Of a stretch of DNA of 40,711 nucleotides, positions 7,250 to 40,323 are shown piece by piece. Under the pieces are notes generated by a model. The model worked only from the letters and a program-made list of their open reading frames with translations, was not told the DNA's origin and ran no database searches. Every line of letters begins with the position of its first letter. Position 1 is the stretch's first letter. Source of the DNA: a virus. Where the stretch lies: IMG/VR virus record IMGVR_UViG_3300020472_000005, positions 1 through 40,711 of that record; one strand, given 5' to 3'. Made by a program: the position numbers and the translations under genes.

Positions 7250-7469
7250 GACTTTTTTAAGTAACAACCCATTTGGAGGAGTAGGAACATCAATAGGAGG
7301 ATATTTTATATCCTTATCAGATGCACTTTCTCCATTTTTAAGATTTTTAATATTATTTTTTAGTACTATCACGGCTATCTCTGTTGCTTATATTCAGTAT
7401 AACAAAGCATGGAGAATAAAAGATGCCAAAGAAAACGCCAGTAAGAAGGATCGTAGTAACTCCAGATAA
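7227..7469 (+). CDS. Holin-like membrane protein
   Basis: An 80-residue protein with one clear hydrophobic segment at about residues 37-56 (LRFLILFFSTITAISVAYI), a moderately hydrophobic N-terminal half and a highly charged C-terminal tail (KDAKENASKKDRSNSR). It overlaps the endolysin-like gene upstream and the metallophosphoesterase gene downstream. Size, topology and position suit a holin, but holins share no diagnostic motif. Confidence 0.55.
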   Translation: MKKLSSIKTFLSNNPFGGVGTSIGGYFISLSDALSPFLRFLILFFSTITAISVAYIQYNKAWRIKDAKENASKKDRSNSR

Positions 7470-8199
7470 ACATTTTCCTCTGGCTGATATGCCAGCAATA
7501 AAAGTTCTTTGTAAGACTATAGAGATCATTCAACCAGATTCTTATATAGATTTGGGAGATGTGGGAGAATGGGAATCTTGTTCTCATTGGAAGTGGAAGA
7601 AGAAAAGACGACCTCCTCTAGAATTTCAATTACCAGATATAGAAAAAGATATTACAGCAGTTAATAAGGGTATGGATATTATTGATGAATCCTTAGATAA
7701 AGCTGGATGTAGCAATAAGCATTTTTGTGAGGGTAATCACGAAGCTTGGTTAAATAGTTTTAATGACGAACATCCTTACTTAGGTTATTCTGTAAAAGGA
7801 GCTCTTGAGCTTGAGCAGAGAGGATATAGTTATCACCCTATGGGTAAGTACTTAAAAATAGGTAAGTTACACTTCTATCACGGACATCATTACGCCAGTG
7901 TTAATCACGCTAGAAATCATCTTATGAAATTAGGAGTTAATATTATGTATGGACATCATCATGATGTGCAACAAGCTTCAGTAACTCATATGGATGGTCA
8001 AAAGTCTGCTTGGAGTATAGGATGCTTAAAAGATATGTCAGACGAAGAAAACTCTTGGCTTGGTTATAGAAAAACTAATTGGAGTCATGCTTTTTCTATT
8101 GTAGATTTCTTTGAGAATGGGTATTTTACAGTACATGTAATACAGATAATTAAGGGTAAAACCTCCCTTTGGGGCGAGATTATAGACGGGAATAAGTAA
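7423..8199 (+). CDS. Calcineurin-like metallophosphoesterase
   Basis: Predicted two-metal phosphoesterase of 258 residues. The ordered metal-binding motifs of the superfamily are visible: DKH (15-17), GDVGEW (45-50), GNHE (104-107), GHH (154-156) and GHHHD (177-181). The substrate cannot be inferred; nucleic acids, cyclic nucleotides or phosphoproteins are all possible in this superfamily. It is embedded between two membrane-protein genes, overlapping both, within the lysis region. Phage proteins of this type are known near lysis or DNA genes, but their role is unsettled. Confidence 0.88.
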   Translation: MPKKTPVRRIVVTPDKHFPLADMPAIKVLCKTIEIIQPDSYIDLGDVGEWESCSHWKWKKKRRPPLEFQLPDIEKDITAVNKGMDIIDESLDKAGCSNKHFCEGNHEAWLNSFNDEHPYLGYSVKGALELEQRGYSYHPMGKYLKIGKLHFYHGHHYASVNHARNHLMKLGVNIMYGHHHDVQQASVTHMDGQKSAWSIGCLKDMSDEENSWLGYRKTNWSHAFSIVDFFENGYFTVHVIQIIKGKTSLWGEIIDGNK

Positions 8200-34366: not shown

Positions 34367-34483
34367 CTAAAATATATATTTTATAATTAAAGTCCATAAT
34401 AAAAAACATCCACACATCATACCTATTAGGATTAATAATCTTGCAAAAAATCCAATAGCATTTAATATCTTATCCTCTAGCAT
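34367..34483 (-). CDS. Small membrane protein (38 aa)
   Basis: A 38-residue ORF beginning at ATG 34483 with AAGGAG at a good distance upstream. It has one strong transmembrane segment (NAIGFFARLLILIGMMCGCF and the following LLWTLIIKYIF). The longer in-frame reading to 34564 runs inside the nuclease C-half gene and is unlikely. The stop of that nuclease gene overlaps this start. Function unknown. Confidence 0.55.
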   Translation of the reverse strand: MLEDKILNAIGFFARLLILIGMMCGCFLLWTLIIKYIF

Positions 34484-34931
34484 CACAAAGCTCCTTATAA
34501 TTACAATATTTACACTCCCAATCCATAACAGGACATTCTCCATCTTGTAGCATAGGCATCCCATTCTTCTGCAGGTCTTGAACTCTAGTCCAAAAGTTAT
34601 AACTCTGATCTATAAAGTCTAAATCAACGCCAACCTCGTGCATATCTGAGGTATCTTTGTTATAACAAATAAGAGACAACCCATCACATCTACCAAACTC
34701 CTCTCTTATAGCGTACCCATAAGTGCCTAGCTGTAACTCTTGATGGATGGATGGATTGCCCTTACCTCTTCCGAACTTAAATCTCCAAGACCAACTGCCC
34801 ATAGTTTTAATATCATAAATAAAGATTTCTCCACTCTCCATAATAGCCACCACATCAATAAAACCTTTAACATTCATCTCCGGAATATCTATAGGATGTT
34901 CAATTAGTATATCTTTAACATCACTCATCAT
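34470..34931 (-). CDS. Cas4/RecB-like nuclease, C-terminal half (split gene)
   Basis: A 153-residue product with the catalytic core of a PD-(D/E)XK exonuclease: GFIDVV (Asp26), IFIYDIKT (Asp40-Ile-Lys42) and QLGTY (67-71, the QxxxY motif). It ends with cysteines 133, 140, 143 and 149, the last three as CX2CX5C, the Fe-S signature of Cas4/AddB-type nucleases. The N-terminal cysteine and HE motifs that belong to the same fold are encoded separately at 36054-36317. ATG 34931 (or the next codon) is chosen because GGAG lies upstream; a longer start at 34967 is inside the preceding gene. The nuclease would make 3' tails for the Rad52-like protein. Confidence 0.78.
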   Translation of the reverse strand: MMSDVKDILIEHPIDIPEMNVKGFIDVVAIMESGEIFIYDIKTMGSWSWRFKFGRGKGNPSIHQELQLGTYGYAIREEFGRCDGLSLICYNKDTSDMHEVGVDLDFIDQSYNFWTRVQDLQKNGMPMLQDGECPVMDWECKYCNYKELCDARG

Positions 34932-35097
34932 CAAACTCCGTAGGTAAATCTGCTCCACAATCTTCACAAGTTAAACTAGCACAAACATTTACATCCGGCT
35001 CTGCAGGTTGATAGTCTTTGTTTATATGTGAGCACATATCTTCTTCAGTACAACAATCTTCTTCTAGCTCTGACCATATTGATTTCATCTTACCCAT
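34921..35097 (-). CDS. Hypothetical Cys-rich acidic protein (58 aa)
   Basis: A 58-residue ORF overlapping its upstream neighbour by eight bases and the nuclease C-half by 11 bases, so it is embedded in a coupled chain. It is very acidic with a cluster of cysteines (EEDCCTEEDMC, NVCASLTCEDCGAD); CX3-4CX2C spacing near the end could bind a metal. The protein lies between the two nuclease halves on the genome. No family is recognised. Confidence 0.55.
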   Translation of the reverse strand: MGKMKSIWSELEEDCCTEEDMCSHINKDYQPAEPDVNVCASLTCEDCGADLPTEFDDE

Positions 35098-35596
35098 TTA
35101 CATTCTCCTTTACATTTTCTATTTTATGCTTATATCTATTCATAGGGAAATGAGCTACAAGCTCTCTATCTGCTATTGATTCCGGTCTGAAATTTTCCTT
35201 AGAAGTCCTACCACTATCTGCTATAAAATACATTTCAGATCTAATATCAATATATTTATATAAATATATATCTCCATTTAAAAATCTAAAACCTAGCCAA
35301 AACTCTAACCCTAAACACTCATACTGCCTACCTCTTCTTATTTTATCTGAAGATATAAAAAGTGTATCAAAGTCTCCAAAATTTATTTCTCTACATTTTA
35401 TCTCAATAACACCTTCACATCTTTTTTCTTCTAAATTATTAACTATTTGACAATCCATCACAGAATATAGTTTAGGATTTTTAATTATACCTTTTTGCAT
35501 ATACCTAGCAATTTTTCTTCTAGTATCTTCTTCTAAACTTATACTCTCTTCAGTTTCATACTGCTGAAACCCTCTATTATTATCTGTTATTTCCAT
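35090..35596 (-). CDS. Putative PD-(D/E)XK-like nuclease or resolvase
   Basis: A 168-residue protein whose centre has GVIEIKCREINFGDFDTLFISSDKIRRG, resembling the 'vEIKcR....y.ty.iS..K' core of small phage nucleases, with EIK as the catalytic strand and a following Lys as helper. The later FWLGFRFLNGDIYLYKYID is a strand pair typical after that core, and an upstream Asp (MDCQI) could be the first acidic ligand. The family is recognised only by pattern, and the role is open. It lies between the split nuclease halves. Confidence 0.5.
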   Translation of the reverse strand: MEITDNNRGFQQYETEESISLEEDTRRKIARYMQKGIIKNPKLYSVMDCQIVNNLEEKRCEGVIEIKCREINFGDFDTLFISSDKIRRGRQYECLGLEFWLGFRFLNGDIYLYKYIDIRSEMYFIADSGRTSKENFRPESIADRELVAHFPMNRYKHKIENVKENVNG

Positions 35597-35956: not shown

Positions 35957-36055
35957 ACTTATATATATATATATATATTATTATATATTATATATATTAT
36001 TATTATTAATAGTTCTTAAAAGAAAAAGAAAAAAGAATAAAAAGAAAAAGAAATT
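35957..36055 (-). repeat. Pyrimidine tract plus alternating AT element, right-arm copy
   Basis: Read on the transcribed strand, an AATTTCTTTTTCTTTTTATT tract is followed by about 50 bases of A/T alternation, closely matching the left-arm element at 923-1017 by eye over most of its length. It follows the stop codon of the nuclease N-half and precedes the 55-residue gene, so it separates the split nuclease gene from the rest of its operon. Confidence 0.6.
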
Positions 36056-36317
36056 AATCTTTTTGTTTTTTATTAATAACTTTTACAATAGTTTTCTGTA
36101 CATCCTCGTGAACAACCTGCCCTAACCTCATTATTCTCATAGACTTTGAGTTAGGCTTATTAGTAGGCTCTGCTTTCTCGATAGATTCAAAATATATCTT
36201 CCTAGCACACATCCCACTACTACTTGCTCTGAACTTACTATCTGTTTTTGGATTTTTTTCTCTGTATTCGATTTGATCTTGCTCGATCATATCATTATAA
36301 GTTTCAATTAATTTCAT
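36054..36317 (-). CDS. Cas4/RecB-like nuclease, N-terminal half (split gene)
   Basis: An 87-residue product matching only the start of Cas4/RecB-like nucleases: FRASSSGMCARKIYFE (Cys37, the first Fe-S cysteine with its following Arg-Lys) and MRLGQVVHEDVQ (His70-Glu71). It stops exactly before the point where the family's Asp and DxK strands should begin; those are encoded at 34470-34931. No remnant of the missing half follows: the downstream DNA is the pyrimidine/AT element. The protein is intact at its start with an AAAGGG ribosome site. It is likely a subunit of a two-chain nuclease, although a decayed gene is possible. Confidence 0.7.
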   Translation of the reverse strand: MKLIETYNDMIEQDQIEYREKNPKTDSKFRASSSGMCARKIYFESIEKAEPTNKPNSKSMRIMRLGQVVHEDVQKTIVKVINKKQKD

Positions 36318-36633: not shown

Positions 36634-36738
36634 CTAGAACAAGAACTCTACTATTATGCTAATTAACAACAATCCTAAACATAGAAATATTATTTCTATA
36701 CTATCAAAGATGGATGCTACAATTACAATCTTCTCCAT
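36634..36738 (-). CDS. Tiny membrane peptide (34 aa)
   Basis: A 34-residue ORF starting just behind the amidotransferase stop codon, with GGAGG seven to eight bases upstream. Almost the whole peptide is hydrophobic (IVIVASIFDSIEIIFLCLGL, then LLISIIVEFLF), predicting one membrane span. It belongs to the amidoligase operon by spacing. Unknown function. Confidence 0.55.
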   Translation of the reverse strand: MEKIVIVASIFDSIEIIFLCLGLLLISIIVEFLF

Positions 36739-36739
36739 A

Positions 36740-37624
36740 TTACTTACCTCCATCTAATGTGAAAGACTTATTCCATTCTACTATTTCTTTAGTAGCTTCA
36801 GACCTTCCACTCTCTAGTTCTTCGTAGTCCTCCTCTATCTCTATACACTCATCACATAGCCACATATAGTGAGGATCTTCTCCCTCGTACCTATCTCCTA
36901 TATCAAAGTGGGTTAATCCATATACTAGATCAGAGCAGTAGTTACATTCCAGAGTAGGTGAATTAGAGTATTTGCTAGGTGGATCTGCTTTAGTAGATGA
37001 GGACTTCCAGAGGTCTGTAACACTAGAGGTATCATCCCAAGCAGCTATAGAATCGAAACCTCTATACATCCCATATACATTACAGCTTTGGTAGGATTTG
37101 TTAGAGTACCATATACCATCTAGCCAATGACCTAGAGATTCGTTAATTATATCATAGCTACCATCTTTATTTAAAAATGCTAACTTGGATGTTCCTATGT
37201 AGGAACTTATTAACTCTTTAACTCCATCACTCTTAAGAAAATTACTACTTAACTTTTGTAGCACATCTCTATTAAACACTTGAGTATCTGATAGTACCTT
37301 ATCATCATCTACTTTATTTATTATTCCATTGTGAGCAAATACTAATCCATTCATTACTTTAAACGGATGTACATTAATAGTACCTTTATGCTCTCCATGT
37401 GTAGCTAGTCTAAAGTGTAGTAGGAATGGAGACTTACTACTATAGTTCTTTATATCTTTGTTGTATGCTTTAACAAATTTATCATAGCTCCTATATTTCT
37501 TAGTAACTAACTTTCCACTATTTATGTAGGAATAACCTACACCATCTGGATTAGACTCAAATGAATTTAATAATTTATCTTCATCTACTCTAGTATTCTT
37601 CTCTTGCATTATTAATAAACACAT
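36740..37624 (-). CDS. Class II glutamine amidotransferase
   Basis: Predicted Ntn-hydrolase that releases ammonia from glutamine. In the 294 residues Cys2 is next to the initiator Met, as needed for the N-terminal nucleophile. The family motifs follow: NPDGVG (25-30), HFRLATHG (70-77), NVHPF (84-88) and FAHNGI (97-101). The C-terminal third has a probable zinc ribbon (LECNYCSD and MWLCDECIE) not found in the core enzyme, then an acidic helix. It lies 33 bases after the predicted amidoligase gene, and such enzymes commonly pair with ligases that use the ammonia or a transferred amide. Confidence 0.85.
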   Translation of the reverse strand: MCLLIMQEKNTRVDEDKLLNSFESNPDGVGYSYINSGKLVTKKYRSYDKFVKAYNKDIKNYSSKSPFLLHFRLATHGEHKGTINVHPFKVMNGLVFAHNGIINKVDDDKVLSDTQVFNRDVLQKLSSNFLKSDGVKELISSYIGTSKLAFLNKDGSYDIINESLGHWLDGIWYSNKSYQSCNVYGMYRGFDSIAAWDDTSSVTDLWKSSSTKADPPSKYSNSPTLECNYCSDLVYGLTHFDIGDRYEGEDPHYMWLCDECIEIEEDYEELESGRSEATKEIVEWNKSFTLDGGK

Positions 37625-37657
37625 AACTTATTTACCTTTCTGTTATTTACTTGTTGT

Positions 37658-39439
37658 TTAGTAGTTAAGACCTTCTGGAACCTCTAGAGGAAACTCCAAA
37701 ACTCTCTTAATTCTCTTGTTATTTTTACCTAGAAAGCTATTAAGATTCTTATATCTCTTAAAATCTTTCTCTATAAAACTTATGTAGTCTCTAACTGTTA
37801 GATCTTTCATAGCTGTAACTCTAGTAAAGTAATACAAGCTATCAATAAACTCTATGTTCTTACGGAACGATTCCTCTACTAAGTTACCTTTAAATATTCT
37901 AACTTCAATAGTATTAGAATGTTGCAGGTTAACAGGCACATACTTCTCTCCATATCTAGTAGTACTATGGTTTTGAGACTTATTTTTATACTCTTTATAT
38001 TCTCTCCTCTTATTCTTAATATTATCTACCATCTTTTTCTTAGCTCTATCTTTAAAGCTATTATTAAACTTGGAATACTGATTAAGCTCTCCAACCTCTT
38101 TCCGTTGGCTAATTAGATAAGCTAAACCTTTGTACTCGTGAATAAATGTAATAAACTTAAATAGATGGTGATCAGAGAACGCTTCTCTATTAATATGTAT
38201 ATGTATTCCACAAGTCCTAGTAGCATAAGATTGTAGAGCCTCTCTACCTCTGTACTTAAATATAGACTCCTCTAGATCTAGATGCTTAAGAGCATTAAAA
38301 GTCATAGGCATAAAACATATCTCGAAACCATCATTTAAGCTACCATCATTCTTGCAGTAGAAGAATTGTTCATTACCTTTATAGTTAGTAATGTTCTCTG
38401 CATAGCTATATTTATCACTATCTCTACATTCTACCTCTAACTCTATTCCGTAGAAAGGTACTTTATATTTCTTATTACTACGAAGCTGATCGTTAACAGA
38501 TCTAAACTTATTAGAGTAATCCCAGAATACTAGATAAGGTGTGTAGTCGTAGCTTCTAATAGCATTAGGTTCTTCGTAGCAATTCTCACAAAAATCCTCC
38601 TCTGTTCTTTCGTTCCAAATAAGGTTATCTCTATTGAAATACTCATCACAAGCTCGGCAGTAGCTATAATCATCTTGACAGTTATCACAGATGTAACCTC
38701 CTTCATCCTCGCAGTAGACCATATCATGCCTCTCTCCGTATTCTTTAAAGCTACAACATTCGCAGTACTTAGCATCTTCTTCAGAGTTTAGATTCATATA
38801 CTCTCCTTCTAAACTAATACCATCAAAGTAAGAATCGCTATCAGCTTTAAAGTAGAATGCAGTATAATCTGCTTGATAGGTTTCAAGTACCTTCCTACCA
38901 TTCTCTCCTAAATCTTTTAACCTCTGAGTTATTAATCCTATTTGCAAATACCACATAGCCCAAGCTCTACCTACATCATATACTAAGTCTACAGAACTTT
39001 CTTCGCTATCATAGTATGTATAGTTTAGAGAATCCATTAGCTGATAATGTAAGTTATATAGATCTTCTCTTAAGCCATTACCTGCACCCTGTGAAATAGA
39101 AAGTATAAGTACTTGATTTGTTTTGTAGTTATCAAAAGCTCCTCTCCTGTTATCATAACCTACTTTCCAATTTTTCTCTAACTGCTCTTGAGTAGCATCT
39201 TTACAGAACCTATCTACTTTATCAGTATCTCCTATTATAAGTCCTATTAACATAGACTCGTTATAGTGTGCAGTAGCTCTATAAGGTTTATAACTCCATT
39301 GATCTAGTAGAGTAATCTCTGGAACCTCCTCTCCGTAGATCCTATTTAGATCTTTTTGAGTCCTACGATATAACTTAACTACTTTACTATTTTTACCTAT
39401 GTTGCTAGTATTATCTACTTTAACTTTAATAATTTCCAT
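37658..39439 (-). CDS. Amidoligase (GS-like COOH-NH2 ligase)
   Basis: A 593-residue predicted ATP-dependent ligase forming amide bonds. The catalytic part is C-terminal: GIELEVE (331-337, the metal-binding ExE), KNDGSL with GFEI (363 onward), CGIHIHI (410-416, the HxH motif) and TIEVRIF (Arg514). This order matches the glutamine-synthetase-fold amidoligase family (Amidoligase_2). Residues 226-290 hold ten cysteines, among them CDNC and CRAC, predicting one or more zinc ribbons. The N-terminal about 220 residues are unrecognised, with YKPYRATAHYNESMLIGLI-type alpha/beta segments. A class II amidotransferase is encoded next. The substrate is unknown; proteins or cell-wall peptides are possible. 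Confidence 0.82.
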   Translation of the reverse strand: MEIIKVKVDNTSNIGKNSKVVKLYRRTQKDLNRIYGEEVPEITLLDQWSYKPYRATAHYNESMLIGLIIGDTDKVDRFCKDATQEQLEKNWKVGYDNRRGAFDNYKTNQVLILSISQGAGNGLREDLYNLHYQLMDSLNYTYYDSEESSVDLVYDVGRAWAMWYLQIGLITQRLKDLGENGRKVLETYQADYTAFYFKADSDSYFDGISLEGEYMNLNSEEDAKYCECCSFKEYGERHDMVYCEDEGGYICDNCQDDYSYCRACDEYFNRDNLIWNERTEEDFCENCYEEPNAIRSYDYTPYLVFWDYSNKFRSVNDQLRSNKKYKVPFYGIELEVECRDSDKYSYAENITNYKGNEQFFYCKNDGSLNDGFEICFMPMTFNALKHLDLEESIFKYRGREALQSYATRTCGIHIHINREAFSDHHLFKFITFIHEYKGLAYLISQRKEVGELNQYSKFNNSFKDRAKKKMVDNIKNKRREYKEYKNKSQNHSTTRYGEKYVPVNLQHSNTIEVRIFKGNLVEESFRKNIEFIDSLYYFTRVTAMKDLTVRDYISFIEKDFKRYKNLNSFLGKNNKRIKRVLEFPLEVPEGLNY

Positions 39440-39441
39440 GA

Positions 39442-39669
39442 TTATTTACTCCTATCTTTATTTACTATTATTGTTTTTCTAAATGGCTTAGGTTTATTAG
39501 CTAGTTCAAGATTATTATATACACATCTTAAACTCTTTATAATATCTTCTATTAAAATTTTGTTTGGCTCTGAGGACTGCTTTGTAGCTAAATCTCTTAA
39601 GTCTGTTATACTGCTTATTAGAGATTGTTTACTTGTACTAATTATAAGTTCATCTAGTTCTAATTTCAT
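39442..39669 (-). CDS. Hypothetical helical protein (75 aa)
   Basis: A 75-residue protein immediately upstream of the amidoligase gene (two bases between stop and start), so probably co-expressed. It is helical and Ser/Leu-rich (MKLELDELIISTSKQSLISS, then ITDLRDLATKQS) with a basic C-terminus. No motif or family recognised. Its ATG overlaps the stop of the 23-residue peptide gene. Confidence 0.6.
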   Translation of the reverse strand: MKLELDELIISTSKQSLISSITDLRDLATKQSSEPNKILIEDIIKSLRCVYNNLELANKPKPFRKTIIVNKDRSK

Positions 39670-39740
39670 TATGAGTATTCTCCTGTTAGTAGGTTTTTTA
39701 TTAATATAGCTGTTATCATTATTAGTAGAAATTCTCCCAT
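39669..39740 (-). CDS. Tiny hydrophobic peptide (23 aa)
   Basis: A 23-residue frame with a hydrophobic core (EFLLIMITAILIKNLL). Its stop overlaps the next ATG as TAATG, and AGGAG lies six bases before its own start, within the preceding ORF. Very short, but coupling and ribosome site support expression. Confidence 0.42.
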   Translation of the reverse strand: MGEFLLIMITAILIKNLLTGEYS

Positions 39741-39742
39741 CT

Positions 39743-39832
39743 CTAATCTCCTAACCTATCTAAAGCCTTATATACCCAAGCCCCTATTACTACGCATACT
39801 ACTATGTTTACTATGAATATTATAAATTCCAT
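39743..39832 (-). CDS. Tiny membrane peptide (29 aa)
   Basis: A 29-residue frame with one predicted membrane span (EFIIFIVNIVVCVVIGAWVY) and a charged end (KALDRLGD). AGGAG lies upstream at proper spacing, after the tandem 15-bp repeat. It opens the operon containing the amidoligase and amidotransferase genes. Confidence 0.48.
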   Translation of the reverse strand: MEFIIFIVNIVVCVVIGAWVYKALDRLGD

Positions 39833-39954: not shown

Positions 39955-40323
39955 TTATTTTACTTTAACAGGTACAGCTTTAGCTATTAAGCTTACTGCA
40001 TAATCAATCCCATCTTTACTCCATGTATTGTTATCTGCTAGAACTTTAGTAGCTTCAGCATATGCAGTTTGTACATTATCCGGTGCATGGTTTATATGTC
40101 CGGCTCTTGTACCCTTAACTCTATATAGTTCTGATATTCTGCTCTTAGCTTCGGGTGTTAATTGTGCTTTTGTTTTATCCATGCTCGATAATCTCTTCGC
40201 TGTCTTGCTAGGGTCGGACATAACAAAATTTAACGCCATGCTGTCTACTTCTTTATTTACTAGATTGTTAAACTCTTCACTACTTACTGCGATTTTAGTT
40301 ACTTTATTTTCTGTAGTTTCCAT
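39955..40323 (-). CDS. Hypothetical first early protein (122 aa)
   Basis: A 122-residue protein, the first gene of the leftward block, with its own terminator, so likely highly or very early expressed. It is polar and helical (EEFNNLVNKEVDSMALNF), with a central TPEAKSRISELYRVKGTRAG segment that looks like a small helical DNA-binding unit and a hydrophobic end (AVSLIAKAVPVKVK). No family is recognised; host takeover or DNA-binding roles would fit its place but are guesses. AAGGAAAT lies before the ATG. Confidence 0.62.
   Translation of the reverse strand: METTENKVTKIAVSSEEFNNLVNKEVDSMALNFVMSDPSKTAKRLSSMDKTKAQLTPEAKSRISELYRVKGTRAGHINHAPDNVQTAYAEATKVLADNNTWSKDGIDYAVSLIAKAVPVKVK

Follow-up and report, generated by a model that had tools for sequence, protein, structure and literature searches.

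A linked amidoligase and class II amidotransferase pair in an uncultured virus: a new member of an already reported two-gene set

Introduction

Genes encoding an amidoligase and a glutamine amidotransferase (GATase) have been reported side by side in phages. The pair was described in MEP401 and MEP402, which are phages of Methylophilales (OM43) (PMC10580990). Related and larger cassettes are present in LUZ24-like and RIO-1/phiEco32-like podoviruses (PMC3890496, PMC5498523). For such cassettes, a modification of the cell wall has been proposed (PMC10580990, PMC5498523). The idea of such a modification, acting against superinfection, is credited to Iyer et al. 2009 (PMC10580990). MurT-GatD, a two-protein set that amidates peptidoglycan, offers a precedent (PMC3267633). 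Here, we analyse an amidoligase and amidotransferase pair in the virus record IMGVR_UViG_3300020472_000005. The whole stretch of 40,711 bases, with 33% guanine and cytosine, is called the window.

The pair of the window is a new member of this already reported two-gene set, and it belongs to a phage lineage without a close annotated relative. A preliminary description of the sequence had presented it as the strongest candidate for an undescribed system, which the reports from OM43 phages and podoviruses cited above contradict. What is new here is the linkage survey of the minimal two-gene form, the structures, the co-divergence, an overlapping peptide specific to one clade, and a divergence of the cassette that is faster than for most other genes on the replication side. 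We found no literature report of the substrate of the pair or of a tested function. In our reading (a probability of roughly 0.55), the two proteins are the subunits of a glutamine-dependent amide synthase that acts on a carboxylate. For the substrate, a cell-wall peptide is the first guess.

Results

The amidoligase

By sequence profile and structural model, the 593-aa protein is an Amidoligase_2 with a glutamine synthetase (GS)-like fold, and a predicted ATP-dependent ligase. PF12224 (Amidoligase_2) matches residues 401-534 (E = 4.2e-9; 37.1 bits against a gathering cut-off of 22), and PHROG 16683 also matches the protein (E = 1.2e-22). All the family members (38/38) match PF12224 at E ≤ 0.001. 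The window protein presents the conserved motifs ExE, DGS, GxE, HxH, R, and ExR. More precisely, ExE consists of E333/E335, HxH of H413/H415, and EVR of E512-R514. These residues, together with D365, E373, and R446, are invariant across the 38 aligned relatives.

The structure was predicted with AlphaFold2 (AF2) from 38 sequences of the window and viral contigs. Most of residues 330-580 were modelled with confidence, mostly with a predicted local distance difference test score (pLDDT) ≥90, and lower around 460-500. In this model, residues 309-579 resemble YbdK (Z 11.6-11.7; Foldseek E = 4e-4), glutamine synthetases (Z about 11), GmaS, and plant glutamate-cysteine ligase. The Pup ligase PafA and Dop share the same fold in the structure comparison. 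The preliminary description had staked its assignment on a GS-like fold and on the ExE and HxH residues; the fold is predicted, and the residues are retained throughout the relatives.

A Cys-rich region lies N-terminal of the catalytic domain. Its C226, C229, C251, C254, and C264 are kept in 33-37 of the 38 relatives. LIM (PF00412) matches 4/38 family amidoligases, and DZR matches 1/38. Residues 250-310 were modelled at pLDDT 79-89, and the N-terminal 225 residues mostly with low confidence.

The amidotransferase

The 294-aa protein is a class II glutamine amidotransferase and a predicted glutaminase, as judged from the family profile and the model. Its motifs are C2, HFRLATHG (R72/T75/H76/G77), AHNG (H98-N99-G100), and D113. 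Of the 38 relatives, 36 have C2 and the remaining two have a gap there, while R72, G77, N99, G100, and D113 are found in all 38. The window protein alone reaches GATase_4 with E = 0.0026 (17.2 bits against a Pfam cut-off of 23). Among the relatives, 25/38 match GATase_4 and 10/38 match GATase_6 at E ≤ 0.001. Compared with the PDB, the family profile matches the glutaminase domain of GlmS (E = 1.7e-9), and GlmS and PurF occupy the top of the profile ranking. Residues 1-180 of the AF2 model mostly have pLDDT >90. The model shows the N-terminal nucleophile (Ntn) fold and matches GlmS (Z 14.6), EgtC (Z 14.4), and PurF (Z 13.3).

In the tail of the protein, C257 and C260 are kept in 34/38 and 33/38 relatives, respectively. 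A CxxC motif is present in the tail in 70 of 87 sources, which consist of 79 viral loci, seven annotated phage loci, and the window. The sequence of L007, from a Clostridioides phage, was left out of the amidotransferase set; it is not an amidotransferase.

The open reading frames (ORFs), their minus-strand positions, and the motifs agree with the preliminary description. Both enzyme assignments hold as well, given the PF12224 match, the family profile that matches GlmS, the folds, and the intact active sites. The Cys-rich regions claimed for both members are present. Nevertheless, they are a family-wide trait and not special to this phage: CxxC pairs occur in most family members, so a zinc-ribbon architecture peculiar to it was ruled out. 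Degenerate or broken enzymes were also ruled out, since all the catalytic residues are present.

Linkage and co-divergence of the pair

We scanned viral contigs with the amidoligase alignment and obtained at least 575 relatives, from which 79 loci were kept. A single-sequence search of these contigs and a search with the amidotransferase alignment gave no matches. The amidoligase gene is followed by the amidotransferase gene on the same strand in 82 of the 87 viral sources, mostly within about 100 bp; because the amidoligase served to find the loci, these figures describe the linkage from its side only. In some of the 5 exceptions, the source ends soon after the amidoligase gene. Likewise, 68 of 80 loci in the genomes of bacteria and archaea, most of them from Clostridia, show this adjacent order. 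The linkage expected in the preliminary description is conserved in both sets. In the window, 33 bp lie between the two genes.

The distances of the two catalytic domains correlate (r = 0.79), with 0.26 as the best value of 5000 permutations. We also scanned 83 neighbours with PHROGs, and in most loci the pair has no further gene family as a repeated neighbour. WhiB-like regulators turned up in 3 only. This absence of a recurring third family fits a self-sufficient two-subunit enzyme.

The pair occurs in mycobacteriophages, Clostridia, phages of marine Proteobacteria, and one contig from an archaeal bin. MEP401, MEP402, and ctgrD200 share with the window essentially only the pair (for ctgrD200, an 8.4-kb stretch was compared). 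Close kinship with the OM43 phages was ruled out, as only the pair is common. The pair behaves as one unit, because the window has it in common with MEP402 and MEP401, although the other genes that were compared show no relationship.

Some loci depart from the usual layout. Two tandem amidoligases precede the amidotransferase in L018, L024, L054, and probably L033; possibly, they serve two successive modifications. An ATP-grasp gene adjoins L074. The archaeal case is L100, a contig of a Candidatus Lokiarchaeota metagenome-assembled genome, binned as an Asgard archaeon. This contig may be viral or wrongly binned.

Nearest phages and divergence of the cassette

Judged by terminase or portal, no annotated phage is closely related to the lineage of the window. 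The viral contigs G001 and G002 share its backbone, with identities of 84% for the large terminase subunit (TerL), 70% for the helicase, and 67-69% for the nuclease. The amidoligase of the window is 44% identical to that of G001 and 38% to that of G002. For the amidotransferase, the values are 43% and 41%. The cassette (38-44%) is among the lowest of the larger replication-side genes, most of which show 60-75%, and it is similar to the tail genes. Compared at the sequence level, this suggests fast divergence or replacement of the cassette relative to G001 and G002.

Small membrane peptides and the 75-aa protein

The preliminary description had placed three tiny hydrophobic peptides and a 75-aa protein in the operon, and their conservation with the pair was not borne out. 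Neither the 75-aa protein nor any of the tiny peptides has a significant relative by sequence among the 86 other sources, and the 75-aa protein has no family match in Pfam or PHROG. Positional counterparts exist only for the 39-aa downstream peptide, and only in the nearest phages. More precisely, a hydrophobic ORF of about 40-60 aa with a single transmembrane (TM) segment overlaps the 3' end of the amidotransferase gene in the window, G001, and G002 (loci L011 and L012). Most pairs are without such an overlapping ORF. MEP402 has no small TM ORF beside the pair, and MEP401 has one weakly hydrophobic small ORF.

In raw counts, small TM ORFs are denser near the pair than across all flanks (0.25 vs 0.07 per kb). 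However, the enrichment is not significant after dereplication (7/38 pairs vs 1/30 control genes, p = 0.07). After this step, the view that the system includes conserved small membrane peptides is unsupported.

Gene layout and neighbourhood

The plus strand of the window encodes a terminase (PHROG 2), a portal, and a major head protein, and the minus strand encodes a DnaB-like helicase. The cassette belongs to a minus-strand gene run at the right-hand end. This run consists of the 29-aa, 23-aa, and 75-aa ORFs, the 593-aa and 294-aa proteins, and the 39-aa ORF (Table 1). Shine-Dalgarno-like sequences precede the tiny hydrophobic ORFs. Rfam matched no RNA element in the cassette region, and the promoter and terminator scan of the region gave a result no better than shuffled sequence.

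Table 1. Features of the cassette region, in window coordinates
Feature	Position	Strand	Basis
Amidoligase (Amidoligase_2, GS-like COOH-NH2 ligase), 593 aa	37658..39439	-	PF12224, PHROG 16683, AF2 model
Amidoligase catalytic domain, about residues 325-577	37709..38467	-	E333/E335, D365, E373, H413/H415, R446, E512/R514
Amidoligase Cys-rich, LIM/double-zinc-ribbon-like region	38579..38764	-	CxxC pairs 226/229, 251/254, 261/264, 284/287
Predicted class II (Ntn) glutamine amidotransferase, 294 aa, N-terminal Cys2	36740..37624	-	Family profile, AF2 model
Amidotransferase C-terminal CxxC...CxxC zinc-ribbon-like tail	36845..36946	-	C227/C230, C257/C260
39-aa single-TM peptide (34 aa if internal ATG)	36634..36753	-	14-nt overlap with amidotransferase gene end
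75-aa predicted soluble protein, directly upstream of amidoligase	39442..39669	-	ORF
23-aa hydrophobic ORF	39669..39740	-	Shine-Dalgarno-like site; sequence
29-aa hydrophobic ORF	39743..39832	-	Shine-Dalgarno-like site; sequence

Upstream of the cassette, a 122-aa ORF (39955-40323) matches no family significantly, and the surveyed loci contain no significant relative of it. Two other ORFs (34470-34967 and 36054-36317) match separate parts (115-244 and 26-101) of one Cas4-like exonuclease family, PHROG 1706. Small ORFs and a PDDEXK_14 endonuclease (35090-35596) occupy the gap of about 1.1 kb between them. The same split is present in the related phage G001 (L093), with a shorter gap. These ORFs could represent one enzyme in two pieces or a gene that was invaded. 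Finally, a metallo-phosphoesterase (PHROG 221; 7423-8199) is found among the structural genes of the window. A calcineurin-like phosphoesterase is also present in the OM43 phage MEP401, which carries the pair.

Discussion

Class II amidotransferases free ammonia from glutamine by means of an N-terminal cysteine. In GS-like ligases, ATP activates a carboxylate and ammonia is then attached. For the pair of the window, the computation gives both folds, the intact active sites, the tight linkage, and the correlated divergence. In the mechanism that we propose, the amidotransferase would hydrolyse glutamine to ammonia, with Cys2 as the nucleophile after the removal of Met1. The amidoligase, with ATP and Mg2+, would turn a carboxylate into an acyl phosphate and couple the ammonia to it, resulting in a carboxamide. 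The two proteins would associate physically and channel the ammonia, and the zinc ribbons may assemble this complex or hold the substrate. The latter might be a free carboxylate of a cell-wall peptide or precursor (D-Glu or diaminopimelate). Its modification during infection could block competing phages or their lysins.

Because of the tight pairing, a two-subunit amide synthase is the simplest reading, and we consider its glutamine-dependent chemistry probable. As for the substrate, a cell-wall peptide comes first in view of the published proposal and the same logic in MurT-GatD; its chance is about one in three. Several points weigh against these proposals. The amidotransferase model agrees with the gamma-glutamyl hydrolase EgtC as well as it does with GlmS, which leaves glutamine unproven as its substrate. 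Going by the modelled fold, the acceptor could be ammonia or a larger amine. The correlated divergence fits physical interaction or shared inheritance alike and does not separate them. Moreover, cell-wall genes are not recurrent neighbours of the pair in the surveyed loci. A single common cell-wall target is not obvious either, because the hosts of the cassette are so diverse.

The two proteins might instead make and break gamma-glutamyl bonds. In that case, the amidoligase would link an amine to glutamate or to a different acid. The protein resembling an amidotransferase would not supply ammonia but hydrolyse a gamma-glutamyl bond, as in EgtA/EgtC. The near-equal scores of EgtC and GlmS agree with this pathway, and the glutamine-binding motifs would bind a gamma-glutamyl group too. 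Likewise, YbdK, GmaS, and gamma-glutamylcysteine synthetases, which are gamma-glutamyl or amine ligases, are among the structural matches of the amidoligase. A gamma-glutamyl cyclotransferase is also present in the larger phage cassettes (PMC5498523). We nevertheless regard this pathway as unlikely: the sequence profiles of the amidotransferase put GlmS and PurF first, no further pathway enzyme recurs beside the pair, and the strict one-to-one order with correlated divergence fits the subunits of one enzyme better than separate steps. There is a comparably small chance that the pair amidates or conjugates a host or phage protein, and not the cell wall, as a host-takeover modification. The amidoligase family is predicted to act on peptides, and the protein-acting PafA and Dop share its fold. 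The zinc-binding regions could recognise a protein, and the replication-gene neighbourhood suggests early intracellular expression. However, we saw no dedicated substrate protein recurring next to the two genes, and the hosts of the cassette are very different.

The tiny membrane peptides could be working parts, anchoring the complex at the membrane, for example. The overlapping ORF of the nearest phages and the raw density favour this, but after the dereplicated comparison and with most pairs devoid of the ORF, it seems improbable. We give as little credit to a membrane-tethered synthase, in which the 39-aa peptide would anchor the complex at the inner membrane, a lipid-linked cell-wall precursor would be modified, and an envelope arms race would lead to the fast divergence.

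Whatever its substrate, the pair is common in uncultured phages and bacterial genomes, especially Clostridia, and moves as a unit between unrelated phages. Being compact, the two-gene form offers biochemistry an easy point of entry.

Comparison with known systems

MEP401 and MEP402 have the same two families as the window, in the same order and adjacent, and the catalytic domain of the amidotransferase is 42-44% identical. Conversely, their amidoligase is only 23-24% identical, the rest of the genome is unrelated, and the overlapping TM peptide is missing. In the mycobacteriophage Marvin (gp105/gp106) and its relatives, an amidoligase and an amidotransferase are also adjacent in the same order, with CxxC motifs in both. 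This pair differs from that of the window in its identity (25-30%) and its host group.

EgtA is a GS-like gamma-glutamyl ligase. Like the pair of the window, EgtA/EgtC of ergothioneine synthesis combines a GS-like ligase with a protein of class II amidotransferase fold (EgtC). However, EgtC hydrolyses a gamma-glutamyl bond, and no other enzyme of the ergothioneine pathway was found beside the pair.

The peptidoglycan-modification cassette of RIO-1/phiEco32/LUZ24-like phages contains an amidoligase and a class II amidotransferase, as the window does. It is larger, with a second COOH-NH2 ligase, an ATP-grasp enzyme, and a gamma-glutamyl cyclotransferase. None of these three is among the tested neighbours in the window, which has the two-gene core only. 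Finally, MurT-GatD likewise performs an amidation with two proteins, one of them a glutamine amidotransferase (PMC3267633, PMC5871853). It consists of a Mur-ligase fold and a class I amidotransferase, and it is not homologous to the pair of the window. Should the pair turn out to amidate cell-wall peptides, phages would have in it their own counterpart of MurT-GatD and a means of excluding rivals.

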